From Alphaproteobacteria bacterium (GTDB taxonomy: Bacteria > Pseudomonadota > Alphaproteobacteria > TMED109): a stretch of DNA of 64,000 nt. The DNA lies in contig JAURCJ010000002.1 in the NCBI GenBank assembly GCA_030828505.1, forward strand, positions 62,001-126,000, in the 5' to 3' direction. This document shows, one piece after another, positions 1,211-10,401 of the stretch; position 1 is the first letter of the stretch, and the number at the start of each line of letters is the position of its first letter. A program made the position numbers and the translations under genes. Under the pieces are notes generated by a model, which had not been told where the DNA came from, ran no database searches, and saw nothing but the letters and a program-made list of their open reading frames with translations.

Positions 1211-2358
1211 TTTTTGAACTCTAAATTATGAATGAGATGCTCTATAACTGACATTCTTATAGCAACACCAAGTTCAACTTGTTCAAGGATAAGAGTTCTA
1301 TTTATATCATCTGCAAGTTCACTATCTATTTCCACACCTCTGTTTATTGGACCAGGGTGCATAACTAAGGCGTCACTTTTTGCAAAACTAAGTTTTTCTC
1401 GATCTAAACCATAAAATTTAAAATATTCTTTTGCTGACGGAATATAAGACCCTTGCATTCTTTCCCTTTGTAATCTAAGTATCATTACTATATCTACATC
1501 ATTTAACCCTTCTTTAAAGTTAGAAAATGTATTTGCTCCATAGTAAGATAATCCTTCTGCCATAAGAGTAGAAGGAGCAATTAAATTAACTTTTGCTCCC
1601 ATGGTTATAAGTAATTTTATATTTGATCTCGCAACTCTACTATGGGCAATGTCTCCACAAATAGCTATTTTTAAACCTTTAATTTGTTTTTTTCTACGTC
1701 GGATAGCTAAGGCATCTAATAATGCTTGAGTTGGATGTTCGTGCTGTCCATCACCAGCATTGATTACTCCACAATTTACTTTATTAGCAAGTAAGTGGGG
1801 TGTGCCACTTAAAGAGTGTCTGATAACAAGTATATCAGGTTGCATAGCATTTAAAGTCATTGCAGTATCAAGTAAACTTTCTCCTTTCCTAATTGAAGAT
1901 GTCTCAATTTGCATATTGATAACATCAATTCCTAGTCGTTTTGCGGCTAATTCAAAAGATGTTTTAGTTCTAGTAGAATCTTCAAAAAATAAATTTACAA
2001 GAGTTTTTCCGTTATATTTTTGATTAACTTTAGGTTCTAATCTATTTTCTTTTATTATTTCATCTGCTCTATTTAGCAGAGAAGATATTTCGTCTTCTTT
2101 TAAATTTTCAATACCTAGTAAATGGTCATTTTTATAATTTTTAAAACTGCTACTAGAATTATTATTTTTAATTATATAAAAATTAGATGGGTTTATTTTA
2201 CCGTCTGTTAAGTATATAATTCTTTGCATAATTTCTTGTTTGGGAATTCTATTGCCTGATAGATATCGAGAAAGAGTCGCTATAGATATATTTAATTTTG
2301 TGGAAAATGTTTTTCTGCTAATTGAGTTGTTTCTTAACCATTTATCTAAAGCGTGCAT
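1207..2358 (-). CDS. pyrB: Aspartate carbamoyltransferase with N-terminal helix-turn-helix domain
   Basis: Transfers carbamoyl from carbamoyl phosphate to aspartate, the committed step of pyrimidine synthesis. The protein has 383 aa from the ATG at 2358, preceded by ATAGG. A TTG 30 bp upstream lies inside a palindrome and is unlikely as a start. Residues 1-62 form a Cro/Xre-like HTH ([32 protein letters not shown]). Residues 63-77 are an Asn/Ser linker. From about 78 the ATCase follows with intact motifs: FFEDSTRTK (125-132), [51 protein letters not shown]. The second Arg of STRTR is Lys. The linker holds no in-frame start codon, so one polypeptide is expected. Coupled to the degenerate pyrC-like gene downstream. 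Confidence 0.93.
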
Positions 2359-2367
2359 ATTAAACCT

Positions 2368-2407
2368 ATTTTTTATAAAAATTACCAAATTGGTAAAAAA
2401 ATGTCAA
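2368..2407 (-). promoter_or_regulatory. pyrB promoter region with perfect palindromic operator
   Basis: On the minus strand a TTGACA box (2407-2402, overlapping the ruvX stop) is followed by the palindrome TTACCAA-T-TTGGTAA (2396-2382; 7-bp arms, 1-nt centre) and by TATAAA (about 2377-2372), shortly before the pyrB ATG at 2358. The spacer from TTGACA to TATAAA is 24 bp, so the exact -10 is uncertain (TAATTT lies at 17 bp). The palindrome has the size of an Xre-family dimer operator, and the gene it precedes encodes such a domain. Palindrome seen; promoter and autoregulation inferred. Confidence 0.55.
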
Positions 2408-2904
2408 ATAGTGTTATTTTTTATTCTTTTTAAAGCTCCTTCTAGAATCCAACATGCAGCTGATGAATCTATAAATTCTTTTCTTTTATTTCTTGATAAA
2501 TCTATTTCATTAATCATAATTTTTTCTACAGCCTGTGAAGAGTATCTTTCATCCCATAATAACAAAGGTAATTTTAAGACTTTATTAATCTCTTCTGACA
2601 ATCTTCTTATAGATTGAGCTTTTTTTCCAGGTTTTCCATCAATATTTAGAGGTCTACCTACAATTATAGCGATAATATTATTTTCAGCTATAATATTGTT
2701 AATTATATTAATATCTATAATTAGTTTCTTTCTATCAATATGTTTTTTAGCTATAGCAATTGATCTGTTAATATCACTTATTGCAACTCCAATTCTTTTT
2801 TCACCTAAGTCAAGGCCTAATATACTTCCGGTTATAGGAATTTGTGTAATAAATTTATTAATATCAAAATTAATTAGTTTTTTAAATTGCTTGTCATTGG
2901 TCAT
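2404..2904 (-). CDS. ruvX: RuvX/YqgF family pre-16S rRNA nuclease (Holliday junction resolvase-like)
   Basis: 166 aa. RNase H-like fold with the family motifs GLDLGEKRIGVAISD (D32), GRPLNIDGKPG (83-93), LLWDERYSS (DE at 118-119) and IDSSAACWILEGAL (D146). Family members process the 5' end of 16S rRNA; an older annotation is Holliday junction resolvase. It is slightly long because of about 22 extra residues before the core. It lies upstream of pyrB in the same direction, with only 45 bp from its stop to the pyrB ATG; that gap contains the probable pyrB promoter and operator. Divergent from gatC across an AT-rich 100-bp region. Confidence 0.9.
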   Translation of the reverse strand: MTNDKQFKKLINFDINKFITQIPITGSILGLDLGEKRIGVAISDINRSIAIAKKHIDRKKLIIDINIINNIIAENNIIAIIVGRPLNIDGKPGKKAQSIRRLSEEINKVLKLPLLLWDERYSSQAVEKIMINEIDLSRNKRKEFIDSSAACWILEGALKRIKNNTI

Positions 2905-3004
2905 TTAGAGTATTAATCAATCTTATAGGTAAATATATGTATTATTTATTTATATATATATATATTATCAGTATTTTTAAATATATAGATAGGGTTTTTA
3001 AAAT

Positions 3005-3292
3005 ATGTCTTTAGATAAATCAACTTTAGAACGTGTAGCATATCTTGCAAGAATTAAGATAGAAGATTCAGAGATTGAGAATATAACAGCTGAATTAAAT
3101 AATATAATGAAATGGATAGAAGAATTAAATGAGGTAGATGTTGAAAATACTAAGCCAATGACGGGTGTTTCAAACGAATCTCTTAGAGAGAGAAAAGATG
3201 AGGTAAATGATGGAGGTTATAGTGATAAAATAGTAAGTAATGCTCCTGAAAAAATAGATAATTCATTTACAGTACCAAAGGTAATAGAATAA
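3005..3292 (+). CDS. gatC: Glutamyl-tRNA(Gln)/aspartyl-tRNA(Asn) amidotransferase subunit C
   Basis: 95 aa, normal length for GatC. The start MSLDKSTLERVAYLARIKI and the later LNxIMKWIEELNEVDVENTKPM match the family; the C-terminus carries the conserved LRERKDEV segment. GatC wraps around GatA and stabilises the GatCAB complex, which converts misacylated Glu-tRNA(Gln) to Gln-tRNA(Gln). Its stop codon abuts the gatA ATG without a gap, so the genes are co-transcribed and probably coupled. The promoter should lie in the AT-rich 2905-3004 region, but I cannot pick out a convincing -35 box. Confidence 0.93.
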   Translation: MSLDKSTLERVAYLARIKIEDSEIENITAELNNIMKWIEELNEVDVENTKPMTGVSNESLRERKDEVNDGGYSDKIVSNAPEKIDNSFTVPKVIE

Positions 3293-7601: not shown

Positions 7602-7691
7602 GGACACGTGGCCGAGCGGTCGAAGGCGCGCCCCTGCTAAGGGTGTAAACGGGAAACCGTTTCGAGGGTTCGAATCCCTTCGTGTCCGCCA
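7602..7691 (+). tRNA. tRNA-Ser (anticodon GCT)
   Basis: 90 nt with encoded CCA. Acceptor GGACACG pairs fully with CGTGTCC; discriminator G as expected for serine. Anticodon stem CGCCC/GGGTG with loop CTGCTAA gives GCT. A long variable arm (ACGGGAAACCGT) marks class II tRNA. T arm GAGGG-TTCGAAT-CCCTT. Its 3' end appears to have served as an integration site (see the repeat at 9937). Confidence 0.97.
7682..7691 (+). repeat. Putative attL: 10-bp direct repeat within the tRNA-Ser 3' end
   Basis: GTGTCCGCCA, the last ten bases of tRNA-Ser, recurs exactly at 9937-9946 in the same orientation. A GC-rich 10-mer like this is very unlikely to recur by chance within 2-3 kb of such AT-rich DNA. With an integrase stub directly downstream, it fits attL/attR of a small decayed island. 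Short, so not proof. Confidence 0.45.
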
Positions 7692-7712
7692 GTTACATCA
7701 CTATAGTATGTC

Positions 7713-7823
7713 AGCGTACGTCAAACATCTAAGCATACGTTGCTTTTCATTGACACACCCTCATCAGCATTGTTCATATTAATCTATTAATGTGCACTGG
7801 GACTTGTGGACCCATTTGTGGAC
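7713..7823 (+). repeat. Two pairs of short direct repeats resembling integrase arm-type sites
   Basis: AGCGTACGT (7713-7721) and AGCATACGT (7732-7740) are spaced 19 bp apart. TTGTGGAC occurs at 7804-7811 and again at 7816-7823, 12 bp apart. Short direct repeats of this sort between a tRNA and a P4/lambda-type integrase are usual arm-binding sites; I see the repeats but not binding. This stretch looks less AT-rich than its surroundings. Confidence 0.35.
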
Positions 7824-7832
7824 TGGGAGAAA

Positions 7833-7979
7833 ATGAACATGTTAACACAGAAAAAAATTGATACGGTTCCATCCAAGAAGAAATATCACGACGGGGGAGG
7901 ATTATATTTTTATTGTGCTTACATTGTTGATCTATCAACAGTAAAATCTTGCATTAGATTGCATAATACACGTTTATAG
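7833..7979 (+). pseudogene. Tyrosine-recombinase (integrase) N-terminal remnant
   Basis: A short frame starting ATG AAC ATG (7833 or 7839) encodes MLTQKKIDTVPSKKKYHDGG, then GLYFYC, matching the arm-binding N-terminus of P4-type integrases (usual form: MLTD.KI..LKP....LSDGGGLYL). Similarity stops at about 7917 and the frame ends at a TAG (7977-7979), leaving about 46-48 codons of a protein normally near 400 aa. The catalytic core is missing, so it is inactive. Its place just behind tRNA-Ser is the normal integrase position and supports an integrated island that has since been deleted. Confidence 0.6.
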
Positions 7980-8170
7980 GTAACTACACATTTGTATATA
8001 TCTTCTTGATAATAAACAATATGATATGTATCTTTTGATGTCCCAGCAGAATCTGTAAAACTATAAATAACTTTGCCATTACCTAAAATATGAACTGAAC
8101 TATCTTCAGCCCAAGATTTTGAGCAGATGACAAAGAATATAATAAGATTGATGAGTATAAGTTTATTCAT
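7919..8170 (-). CDS. Small secreted protein of unknown function
   Basis: 83 aa. A clear signal peptide (about residues 1-21: MNKLILINLIIFFVICSKSWA, cut before EDSS) precedes a short mature part of about 60 residues with two cysteines. I do not recognise the family. Its 3' end overlaps the end of the integrase remnant on the other strand, so the junction at about 7918 may be a deletion scar and the C-terminus may not be original. Inside the putative tRNA-Ser island. Confidence 0.5.
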   Translation of the reverse strand: MNKLILINLIIFFVICSKSWAEDSSVHILGNGKVIYSFTDSAGTSKDTYHIVYYQEDIYKCVVTYKRVLCNLMQDFTVDRSTM

Positions 8171-8217
8171 ATAAAAACATTAACACAATCATAACTAATT
8201 CTGCAAATACTGGAGTA
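8171..8217 (+). repeat. 47-bp imperfect direct repeat, copy 1
   Basis: Aligns without gaps to 9509-9555 with 38 of 47 positions identical. Shared blocks are ATAAAAAC, CACAATCA and CAAATACTGGAGTA. It lies just upstream of the start of the 83-aa secreted gene. Confidence 0.55.
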
Positions 8218-8292
8218 GGTGGAGTATAAATAATTCCTATAACACCTATAGAGTGCATTTTTAAATATATTTGTTAGTGTTAGCACAACATC

Positions 8293-8431
8293 TATAGAGA
8301 AGCTTAGGCTTCACCAACCTGCCATGATCTGGCAAAGGTGGTTCAACGATGTGGTCTTTTTAGGCAAAAGTAAGATCACCTAGTAGAAACTTCATAGATG
8401 AAGCTGTGGAGTTTTTTTTTGCTCCACTTTT
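8293..8431 (+). ncRNA. Possible structured RNA or attenuator leader upstream of osmC
   Basis: A promoter-like TTGTTA (8271-8276), 16-nt spacer and TATAGA (8293-8298) precede a run of hairpins. The first is ACC-TGCCA/TGGCA-GGT (8317-8339). The second is GTGGTCTT/AAGATCAC (8351-8358 with 8372-8379; 8 bp, one G-U). The third is CTTCAT/ATGAAG (8390-8403). The last, GTGGAG/CTCCAC (8406-8427), is followed by TTTTATT and looks like an intrinsic terminator 27 bp before the osmC ATG. It could be an independent small RNA or a transcription attenuator for osmC. I could not match it to TPP, cobalamin, SAM, glycine, 6S, SRP, tmRNA or RNase P consensus elements. Confidence 0.35.
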
Positions 8432-8458
8432 ATTAAAAATAATAAATGGAGTAATAAC

Positions 8459-9007
8459 ATGACCACAAATAATAAAAAATCGTATAAAAAAATTGTAGAA
8501 GATTTACAAACAGCTTTTACTGATAACCCAGAGGCAGCAAAAGCAGATTTTTTTGCATCTTCAAAACTCATAAGTGGTTTAAGGTGTGAATCTACATCAA
8601 GAGGATTTAAAACAATTATTGATGAGCCAGAATCTCTCGGTGGTTCTAATCTTGGACCTAGCCCTGTCGAGCTTGCATTATCTGCTTTAGGTGCTTGTCA
8701 AGAAATCACGTATAGGTTGTATGCAGATAAACTTGGAATTCCTTTAGAGAAAATAGAGATTGATTTATCAGGAAATTTAGATTTTAAAGGATTTTTAGCC
8801 TTAGATGATAATATTCGTGCTGGATATTTAGGAATAAATGTTACAGTAAATATAGAGAGTACAGCAAGTGATGCTGAAATTGATAAATTAAAAGATATTG
8901 TCAATGCACATTGTCCTGTACTTGATTTATTTAGTAATAAAACTCCTGTAAATATTTCTGTAAACAAAAAATCTTCAAGTTCTAATAAGAAGCAACAAGC
9001 TGCTTAA
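8459..9007 (+). CDS. OsmC/Ohr family protein
   Basis: 182 aa. OsmC family proteins are thiol peroxidases acting on organic hydroperoxides or related thiol chemistry. Both family cysteines are present: C80 in LSALGACQEI and C152 in AHCPVLD. Residues 1-45 form an extra N-terminal segment; the C-terminus is Ser/Lys/Gln-rich. GGAG lies about 8 nt before the ATG. It faces a DsrE-family gene across a shared hairpin, and the two probably arrived together with the island; OsmC and DsrE proteins both handle sulfur or thiol chemistry. Confidence 0.85.
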   Translation: MTTNNKKSYKKIVEDLQTAFTDNPEAAKADFFASSKLISGLRCESTSRGFKTIIDEPESLGGSNLGPSPVELALSALGACQEITYRLYADKLGIPLEKIEIDLSGNLDFKGFLALDDNIRAGYLGINVTVNIESTASDAEIDKLKDIVNAHCPVLDLFSNKTPVNISVNKKSSSSNKKQQAA

Positions 9008-9023
9008 TATATAGATATGGTTG

Positions 9024-9061
9024 ATAGCCCTTATGTCCCATGCGTTAAGCATAAGGGCTAT
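9024..9061. terminator. Bidirectional terminator-like hairpin between osmC and dsrE
   Basis: Perfect 12-bp inverted repeat ATAGCCCTTATG / CATAAGGGCTAT around a 14-nt loop, placed between two convergent genes. No strong T tract follows on the plus strand, but position and strength suit a shared terminator. Confidence 0.65.
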
Positions 9062-9093
9062 TAATATCTGAACTGTTTATTCTTAATCACATG

Positions 9094-9447
9094 TTAATAC
9101 GTGATTACTCTAGTATTAGGCAAAGATGATGCAACATGGAAGTCATTCATTCCTACAAAGTTAATTTTTTCTAAACAGTTTTCTTTATAAATATTTCTTA
9201 CTTCTGCACAAGGTTTACAAACTATAATTTTTGCATTTTTATGATTATATACTTCTTCAAATCTAGGTGGAGGACCTACTGGCAAAATATTTTTAGCAAC
9301 TCCTTTTGATGCTAAATGTACCGCATCATGAAATAACATTATTGTTACTTCATCATTAGCTTGTAAAGCTGAGGCAGAAAAAATAAATGGTAACATTGCT
9401 CTTGTTGGATCTGTTGGGCCCCAACTAGCAGATATGGCAAAATGCAT
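9094..9447 (-). CDS. DsrE/DsrF-like family protein
   Basis: 117 aa, right size for the DsrE fold. Recognisable parts are DEVTIMLFHDAVHLASKG and KIIVCKPCAEVR, with C77 and C80 at the position where DsrE-like sulfur carriers keep their reactive cysteine; C91 is nearby. A strong AAGGAG Shine-Dalgarno sits 7 nt before the ATG. Role probably in sulfur transfer or redox sensing; partner unknown. Convergent with osmC. Confidence 0.7.
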   Translation of the reverse strand: MHFAISASWGPTDPTRAMLPFIFSASALQANDEVTIMLFHDAVHLASKGVAKNILPVGPPPRFEEVYNHKNAKIIVCKPCAEVRNIYKENCLEKINFVGMNDFHVASSLPNTRVITY

Positions 9448-9508
9448 TAATAATCTCCTTAATATTTATGATTACAAATATAATAATTAAACTTATTATT
9501 TTATCCCC

Positions 9509-9555
9509 ATAAAAACTCTACCACAATCAGAGGTATCTCTACAAATACTGGAGTA
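9509..9555 (+). repeat. 47-bp imperfect direct repeat, copy 2
   Basis: 81% identical to 8171-8217 (38/47, no gaps), ending in the same CAAATACTGGAGTA. It lies upstream of the dsrE start, whereas copy 1 lies upstream of the 83-aa secreted gene; both downstream genes are on the minus strand. It might be a shared regulatory or mobile repeat. Confidence 0.55.
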
Positions 9556-9658
9556 TTATTCTATATGGTAACACTCTCAAGCTTAATGGTGGAATCGCTA
9601 GAGCCTTTATTTCATAACATTATTATATTTATGTTCAGCTTTTTAAAGATGCGAGTAA

Positions 9659-9796
9659 ATAATAGATTTACAAAATACTGATGTCTGGGGGTCAGGAAAA
9701 GCTCCATACACAAATCAAGTCAGAACAAATGATTTAAAATATAGTTTTGATAATATTTATCATAATTACGTCGTAGCAATAAAATACCTTTTCTGA
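9659..9796 (+). pseudogene. Possible remnant of an outer-membrane beta-barrel protein C-terminus
   Basis: 45 codons stay open between a TAA (9656) and a TGA (9794) with no ATG. The translation includes DVWGSGKAPYTNQVRTNDLK and ends HNYVVAIKYLF; alternating aromatic and hydrophobic residues with a final Phe resemble the C-terminal sorting strand of bacterial outer-membrane proteins. No upstream part is detectable. Low confidence. Confidence 0.25.
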
Positions 9797-9873
9797 TTTC
9801 ACACATATAGATAATAAAGCTTTATTTAATTTTATCTAAAAGATTCATGATTGTTGACTATTTTGTGGGTTAA

Positions 9874-9895
9874 GGTTTTACAAAATTGTAAAACC
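9874..9895. promoter_or_regulatory. Near-perfect palindrome GGTTTTACAA-AA-TTGTAAAACC
   Basis: Ten-base arms with a 2-nt centre, about 78 bp before the ATG of the secreted gene at 9973. Too tightly spaced to form a usual RNA hairpin, so it looks more like a dimer-binding operator. TTGACT lies 14 bp upstream (9854-9859). Binding protein unknown. Confidence 0.35.
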
Positions 9896-9936
9896 CTTAT
9901 ATATAAAGGGATATCTGCGGCAATGCTACAGAGGGT

Positions 9937-9946
9937 GTGTCCGCCA
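9937..9946 (+). repeat. Putative attR: copy of the tRNA-Ser 3' end
   Basis: GTGTCCGCCA, identical and co-oriented with 7682-7691. No other similarity to the tRNA precedes it, as expected for a short core crossover repeat. Together the two would bound a 2.25-kb element. Confidence 0.45.
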
Positions 9947-9972: not shown

Positions 9973-10401
9973 ATGAAATATCTTCTTTATATAATATTTA
10001 TACTAATTATTTCTAATTATGCATGGGGAGAGGATATTAGCTCAAATGGCTTGGTATGCGAGATAGTACAAAATGAATCAAAGAGAGCACCAAATAAAAA
10101 ATTAATATATCATTTTGATTCTGGAAATGTTTATGCTGTAAAAGTTTCAAAAAAAAGTTCACCAATTACAATTAATAAAATTTTAATTTCTCAATATAGT
10201 TATGATAACGAAAAAATTATTTGGGAAGGGGAAAACCCTTCAAAAACTATAAAATACTATGCTAAAGTAAATAGATTAAATCATATATTAGATCTTGAAT
10301 ATTTCTTTGTCTCAGGTTCTAAAACAGATGATAGTACAAAAAAAACGATGTATTGTAATTTAACTTCTTGGCAAGAAATTGAAAACTCTATTAAAAATTA
10401 A
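9973..10401 (+). CDS. Secreted protein of unknown function
   Basis: 142 aa. Signal peptide at residues 1-19 (MKYLLYIIFILIISNYAWG, cut before EDISS). The mature part of about 120 residues is polar, lysine-rich and predicted mainly beta, with two cysteines (one near each end, perhaps a disulfide). I do not recognise a family. It starts 26 bp beyond the putative attR, so it may lie just outside the island; a similar N-terminal style recurs in the gene at 52729. An AT-rich hairpin follows it. Confidence 0.6.
   Translation: MKYLLYIIFILIISNYAWGEDISSNGLVCEIVQNESKRAPNKKLIYHFDSGNVYAVKVSKKSSPITINKILISQYSYDNEKIIWEGENPSKTIKYYAKVNRLNHILDLEYFFVSGSKTDDSTKKTMYCNLTSWQEIENSIKN

Follow-up and report, generated by a model that had tools for sequence, protein, structure and literature searches.

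Within the window (the whole 64,000-nt stretch analysed) a small island interrupts the region downstream of a tRNA-Ser(GCT) gene, and it carries an RNA leader directly followed by an osmC gene (Table 1). The gene product is an OsmC-family protein (PF02566, 73.6 bits against a Pfam cut-off of 27.5) possessing the cysteines Cys 80 (GACQE) and Cys 152 (HCPVL); no NCBIfam subfamily matched it at its own cut-off. This osmC is found in one of the 28 genomes of the family, with matches of 27-28% in six others.

Table 1. Features of the tRNA-Ser(GCT) island, the osmC leader and the osmC gene (window coordinates)
Feature	Position	Strand	Remarks
tRNA-Ser(GCT), attachment site	7602..7691	+	3' end holds GTGTCCGCCA 7682-7691
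Inserted island with riboswitch and osmC	7692..9946 (end about)	.	2.3 kb; repeat GTGTCCGCCA 7682-7691 and 9937-9946
Tyrosine integrase N-terminus, probable remnant	7833..7979	+	48-aa frame at island start
Upstream block in common with congener copy, probable promoter region	8205..8282	+	includes CTATAACACCTATAG 8237-8251
SAM-I/IV aptamer	8283..8381	+	RF01725 full-length model match
P1	8288-8292/8348-8352	+	closes junction
P2	8299-8303/8308-8312	+	simple hairpin
P3	8313-8323/8331-8342	+	SAM-clan core CCAACC/GGUGG
P5 hairpin	8354-8357/8362-8365	+	after P1
PK-2 pseudoknot	8325-8330 with 8373-8378	+	UGAUCU with AGAUCA, 6 bp
Proposed antiterminator	8289-8295 with 8394-8400	+	CAUCUAU with AUAGAUG; excludes P1 and terminator
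Intrinsic terminator (predicted)	8385..8420	+	stem 8385-8397/8404-8416, U9 at 8412-8420
SD-sequestering hairpin (predicted)	8419..8454	+	holds osmC Shine-Dalgarno UGGAG 8447-8451
osmC	8459..9007	+	182 aa, OsmC family

The repeat GTGTCCGCCA occurs exactly twice on the plus strand of the window, at 7682 and 9937, as expected for an attachment repeat. In the same-genus genomes G001, G003 and G004 (the last read by eye) the site is empty, the tRNA-Ser(GCT) gene being followed directly by a homologue of the ORF at 9973-10401. The empty site was readable in these three of six congeners; the contig of G006 ends within the tRNA, and the gene next to the site has no close match in either G002 or G005, so the site was not seen. 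The inserted stretch thus combines a position at the 3' end of a tRNA gene, a flanking repeat and an empty site in relatives, the hallmarks of a genomic island. The probable integrase remnant is identical to the integrase of genome G013 at 12 of 24 residues (E 7e-7 for one comparison), and its Pfam arm domain scores 13.3 bits, under the cut-off of 27. A 62-bp direct repeat (77%) lies inside the island at 8156-8217 and 9494-9555, and overlaps the beginning of the block, described below, that G006 has in common with the window.

Comparison to Rfam (cmscan) reveals a single riboswitch in the whole window, a match to RF01725 (SAM-I/IV riboswitch) on the plus strand at 8283-8381, with 53.5 bits against a gathering score of 41.1, an E-value of 5.8e-6 for the window and positions 1-99 of the 99-position model covered. 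It is also the sole RF01725 match in its own genome (1.44 Mb, 70% complete). The segment almost certainly belongs to the SAM-I/IV family, and aptamer and leader together are well supported as belonging to a known class of riboswitch, for which the target is new. The initial annotation, which had described an unassigned structured RNA before osmC and offered a new riboswitch or attenuator for thiol or peroxide stress as one reading, was right about a riboswitch leader; the full-length match rules out a new class, and the signal to be expected is SAM instead. A hit to the sRNA IsrM (15.5 bits against a gathering score of 376) was discarded as chance. The remark that GC-rich hairpins stand out in AT-rich DNA also stands: the GC content of the aptamer is 44.4%, that of the window 28.3%, and only 0.7% of 99-nt windows are equally rich. 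The region 8279-8432 folds more stably than all of 200 shuffled sequences (z -3.58), the aptamer by itself showing only a modest gain (z -1.81; 11 of 200 shuffles as good).

The SAM-I/IV family is characterized, in the accessible text of its defining papers, as possessing a P2 without an internal loop (Weinberg et al. 2010, PMC2864571) and as lacking the pseudoknot PK-1 (PMC6890682). P2 of the window is a hairpin of 5 bp with a four-nucleotide UUAG loop and no internal loop, no PK-1 was noticed, and PK-2 is present between L3 and the 3' end. We named the hairpin after P1 as P5 by analogy with SAM-IV. P4, a helix placed between P3 and P1, is absent from the window aptamer, where the linker UUCAAC alone is found. 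Such a helix is described in the accessible part of the report on the solved SAM-I/IV structure (PMC6890682); its lack does not exclude membership, since the Rfam consensus of RF01725 does not show it either. In comparison with SAM-I/IV as described in the available text of PMC2864571, the window aptamer thus shares P1, P2 without an internal loop, the P3 core, P5, PK-2 and, in P1 and P3 at least, the SAM-clan pocket, and differs in the missing P4, a J1/2 of six nucleotides, the osmC target, a platform of terminator plus Shine-Dalgarno (SD) hairpin, and its setting on a tRNA island. The series of hairpins described initially was real, although the junction-closing P1 and the pseudoknot PK-2 had been overlooked. 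The hairpin at 8317-8339 lies in P3, whereas that at 8351-8379 (GUGGUCUU/AAGAUCAC) is a local alternative in the minimum free energy (MFE) structure, its arms belonging to P1, P5 and PK-2 in the homology-supported fold.

RF01725 is present in 12 of the 28 genomes of the family and in 35 of 385 genomes of the class sample. The matches numbered 51 (46 bacterial, five viral), of which 42 were used as a pool and nine bacterial ones were left out; 36 of the 42, the window included, were aligned, the near-identical L009 and L013-L016 and the divergent L107 being omitted. Over 29 base pairs 83.1% of the cells are paired; sliding the partner by 1-3 columns lowers this to 35.0-46.8%. Compensatory changes among homologues, which the initial annotation had called for, are present: 16 of the 29 pairs show changes on both sides against a shuffled mean of 9.9, and none of 500 shuffles, which leave relatedness in, reaches any of five covariation measures. 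By helix, the paired cells and the pairs with both-sided changes are 98.9% and two of five for P1 (the other three being invariant), 70.9% and four of five for P2, 85.4% and two of nine for P3, 89.6% and three of four for P5, and 69.9% and five of six for PK-2. In an alignment-free comparison of 34 aptamers (L040 and L107 unparsed, six near-identical rows left out), L3 pairs with its own 3' tail at a mean of -7.00 kcal/mol and with swapped tails at -5.15 kcal/mol (sd 0.30; 0 of 10,000 swaps as good). This covariation supports the SAM-I/IV fold, and family membership, conserved core and covariation may be regarded as established at the level of sequence.

Downstream of the aptamer the predicted terminator hairpin (8385-8416) has a 13-bp stem and nine U residues and is markedly more stable than its shuffles (z -4.30); a GC-containing stem and a U-run are what is expected of an intrinsic terminator. 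The predicted SD hairpin has a z-score of -5.54, and its 5' arm CUCCAC (8422-8427) can alternatively pair with the terminator arm GUGGAG (8406-8411). The window belongs to an AT-rich subgroup of four aptamers (window, L011, L012 and L019), and both hairpins are predicted in all four platforms when folded alone; these amount to three distinct sequences, as L012 and L019 are identical there. The terminator counterparts have z-scores of -5.00 (L011) and -4.26 (L012/L019), and the SD hairpin is weak in L011 (z -1.93; 10 of 200 shuffles as good) and strong in L012/L019 (z -3.88). As predicted structures, terminator and SD hairpin are established from the sequence, and a two-step platform is probable. 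As to the terminator-like stem with T's noted initially, the U-run ends at 8420, which leaves 38 bases to the ATG at 8459 where 27 had been given, and the leader structure continues to 8454, past the 8435 proposed. In many GC-rich members, examined by eye, the ATG follows shortly after the right arm of the terminator, so that a single element may serve there both to terminate and to mask the SD.

The proposed antiterminator is a pairing of CAUCUAU, in the 5' strand of P1, with its complement AUAGAUG in the apical part of the terminator. The MFE structure of the RNA cut at 8381 contains P1, that of the RNA cut at 8393 neither P1 nor the antiterminator, and that of the RNA cut at 8400 the antiterminator. 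For the segment 8279-8432 the MFE structure has the antiterminator and the rival hairpin, as do the ligand-free MFE structures of the full leaders of L011 and L019. The MFE structure of the whole window leader holds the terminator, the SD hairpin and the local hairpin at 8351-8379, with neither P1 nor the antiterminator; that of the full L012 leader lacks the antiterminator as drawn and corresponds to neither state as drawn. The window leader has predicted energies of -52.0 (free), -49.6 (aptamer plus terminator) and -48.8 kcal/mol (antiterminator), pseudoknot and ligand lying outside the model, and in the full-length leader the rival states are thus within a few kcal/mol of each other. Since these energies are close, we infer the direction of switching from the family and the presence of a terminator. 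Pairing of the initial 26 nt of each aptamer with its own or with swapped platforms (35 of 40 parsed leaders) gave -20.36 for own and -16.78 for swapped platforms (sd 0.52; 0 of 5000), and the complementarity holds separately in 11 methionine-gene leaders and in 20 others, L039, which precedes metK, being counted among the 20. It is not significant in the four AT-rich leaders taken alone (429 of 5000), and in the window and L012 the best duplex differs from the antiterminator as drawn.

The riboswitch is very probably a genetic off-switch for osmC, which high SAM would stop and low SAM would allow. At high SAM the aptamer, with P1, P2, P3, P5 and PK-2, would close around SAM and P1 would keep its 5' strand, so that the terminator can form and end transcription; should some RNA read through, its segment CUCCA (8422-8426) would mask the Shine-Dalgarno of osmC. 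At low SAM, for instance under sulfur limitation, the 5' strand of P1 would pair with the apical part of the terminator, which opens; the freed GUGGAG arm could then take up CUCCAC, and osmC would be both transcribed and translated. OsmC would presumably be of benefit in sulfur shortage. We give about even chances to a two-level relay, in which termination is followed by SD masking as a second, translational layer.

Termination alone, with the SD hairpin incidental, is a possibility that we hold with some doubt. The strength of the terminator and the L011 hairpin, which hardly beats its shuffles, are consistent with it; against it, the SD hairpins of the window and of L012/L019 are strong and have different sequences. 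The small RNA raised as an alternative in the initial annotation, which would be a free transcript of some 125-140 nt ending at the terminator, is scarcely credible. High SAM would be expected to yield just such a short transcript, but the aptamer lies directly before osmC with its SD hairpin, no sRNA family reaches its Rfam gathering score here, and it is not favoured because the aptamer is joined with the terminator and the SD hairpin in a single leader. The locus might also be a decaying relic on a degenerate island, with no working switch left, given that the integrase is down to an N-terminal fragment and that the island is missing in three congeners. This is quite unlikely in view of the intact aptamer, pseudoknot, terminator and SD hairpin, and of an osmC frame that is open over its 182 codons and retains both cysteines.

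A further question concerns the ligand, which would be SAM as judged from family membership. Pocket columns and SAM contacts were assigned by SAM-I numbering. On this basis the P3 pocket bases are identical in all 36 aptamers, as are the P1 pocket columns except for the uppermost base pair of P1, which covaries. J1/2 comprises six nucleotides rather than four in the AT-rich four (UAUAGA in the window, then UGUAGA, UAUAGA and UAAAGA in L011, L012 and L019), most members having AAGA, and the automatic alignment places a different base in the J1/2 G11 column in these 4 of 36 only. The subgroup might therefore have kept the fold and adapted to another metabolite, a signal relevant to the island cargo or to thiol chemistry. 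All four precede non-methionine genes, and there is a precedent in the spermidine-sensing SAM-I variants with changes in J1/2 and the P3 loop (PMC10853860, accessible part). These variants resemble the window in possessing a SAM-clan aptamer, an altered J1/2 and an intrinsic terminator; as far as described there, they also have changes in the P3 internal loop, whereas the P3 bases of the window are intact. If J1/2 is read as bearing a 2-nt insertion at its start, [UA]AGA would be kept in all four sequences together with every other pocket base compared; on this reading we put aside the apparent absence of the SAM-contacting G, to which the automatic alignment had first pointed. Members with a canonical J1/2, such as L113 and L120, also precede genes without a known family. 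With the P3 core identical throughout, another ligand is very unlikely, and SAM is the expected effector.

No promoter-like site was scored on the plus strand between 8035 and 8782. The plausible promoter of the initial annotation, for which no hexamers were given, was rejected on position: if TTGTTA (8271-8276) and TATAGA (8293-8298) were meant, the -10 element lies inside the aptamer, and the resulting RNA would lack P1. The stretch 8205-8420, comprising the upstream block, aptamer and terminator, is 81.5% identical to L109 7381-7595 of the congener G006. About 35 bases 5' of the aptamer is the inverted repeat CTATAACACCTATAG, a possible operator or part of a promoter, which by eye recurs in L011 and, with one change and at a similar distance, in L012. 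The window holds one exact copy and three matches at up to two mismatches, where 0.65 are expected; this enrichment is not convincing, as 6 of 100 shuffles reach three matches.

The G006 copy is found near a tRNA-Lys and is followed by unrelated tiny ORFs in place of osmC; inspection by eye of the ORFs in 9.6 kb there revealed no integrase. The subgroup is represented in G013 by an aptamer on a 19-kb stretch that also carries a tRNA-Ser(GCT), a full integrase, a cytosine methylase, an excisionase-like HTH protein and tiny ORFs, the tRNA-Ser and integrase being 7-8 kb from the aptamer. Tentatively, 8205-8420 may be a portable control cassette of integrative islands that ties cargo to the SAM/sulfur state of the host, with a two-level relay in this lineage; island status is established for the window alone. 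If so, the cassette would have been placed before different cargo, osmC here and tiny-protein families in G006, G013 and G017, and its terminator 3' arm would mimic a Shine-Dalgarno in competing for one CUCC segment. The finding of a SAM riboswitch that precedes non-methionine cargo on a tRNA island suggests an ability of mobile elements to sense how well a streamlined host bacterium is supplied with sulfur.

Elsewhere the same class precedes methionine genes (MTHFR, homocysteine S-methyltransferase and homoserine O-succinyltransferase). At L110 8876-10654, L111 565-1176 and L109 7581-7914 SAM-I/IV aptamers with a terminator precede clustered ORFs of 40-120 aa; none of the ORFs tested gave a convincing Pfam or PHROGs match. 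In G013 the tiny ORFs are followed by excisionase-like and terminase-small-like HTH proteins and a Schlafen AlbA_2 protein. SAM-I/IV aptamers at L117 7569-8777, L122 8472-9833 and L042 2220-3578 lie about 4 kb or less from Pfam-confirmed integrases or a serine recombinase; these three were picked by eye among 17 listed loci, and recombinase proximity was tested in them only. The segment 8240-8460 had no match in phage records, and in viral contigs neither a relative of the window OsmC nor an exact match to the AT-rich aptamer pattern was found; the general SAM-I/IV pattern occurs in seven viral contigs, five of them confirmed by Rfam. An apparent tandem of two SAM classes is found in L039, whose contig is classed as viral: a SAM-I/IV aptamer (541-642) comes first, then a SAM-V aptamer (725-793; 42.4 bits against a gathering score of 41), and after both an S-adenosylmethionine synthetase gene (768-2072).

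A riboswitch before osmC is no rule: Rfam finds one in 1 of 19 other osmC loci whose flanks were searched, and none at the two closest relatives of the window OsmC (60% and 57%). The neighbourhoods of 11 relatives were read (L020, L021 and L062-L070; antisense frames obscure the neighbours in L065, L069 and L070). Four of the 11 adjoin homocysteine-forming sulfhydrylases, of the O-acetyl type in L021, L066 and L068 and of the O-succinyl type in L067; another adjoins MsrA (L063), and a further one (L062) a sulfide-quinone-reductase-like protein that scores below the curated cut-off. No paper linking OsmC with "homoserine sulfhydrylase" was found in the open-access literature searched.

A link between osmC and SAM riboswitches is known from SAR11, where the accessible texts place the bhmT-osmC locus under SAM-II/SAM-V control (PMC5069961, PMC2704228). 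In sulfur-limited exponential-phase HTCC1062 osmC, marked as downstream of SAM-V, showed the highest mRNA increase in the sulfur-limitation table (50.04-fold), the protein rising 4.48-fold (PMC5069961, as tabulated there). Both there and in the window, a marine alphaproteobacterium has an osmC preceded by SAM-riboswitch control, and the SAR11 gene (SAR11_1172) lies in a hypervariable region and is strongly induced by sulfur limitation; as described in these two sources it differs in riboswitch class and in standing beside bhmT, whereas osmC is alone in the window. A SAM-I/IV riboswitch before osmC was not found in the open-access literature available to us, most subscription journals being outside its scope, and the main text of the paper describing the SAM-I/IV variants, so far as accessible, does not name osmC (PMC2864571). 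Within that literature, the arrangement reported here is the third in which an osmC follows a SAM riboswitch, and its setting is also new. An OsmC-type peroxidase is hereby linked with the SAM/methionine regulon by a class of riboswitch that differs from those of SAR11, and the role of OsmC in sulfur shortage becomes testable by comparison.

Two further loci combine related elements. In G057 (L067) a SAM-II aptamer (1381-1455) is followed by osmC and an O-succinylhomoserine sulfhydrylase gene (metZ; 1483-3290). As in the window, an OsmC relative (43% identity) stands directly behind a SAM aptamer; the aptamer class and the sulfhydrylase gene after osmC differ. Of the 52 genomes in that family, one yielded a relative of the window OsmC. 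The genome to which the window belongs has a SAM-II aptamer on the minus strand of L045 (1501-1578), after which come a U-run and the gene for an O-acetylhomoserine sulfhydrylase.
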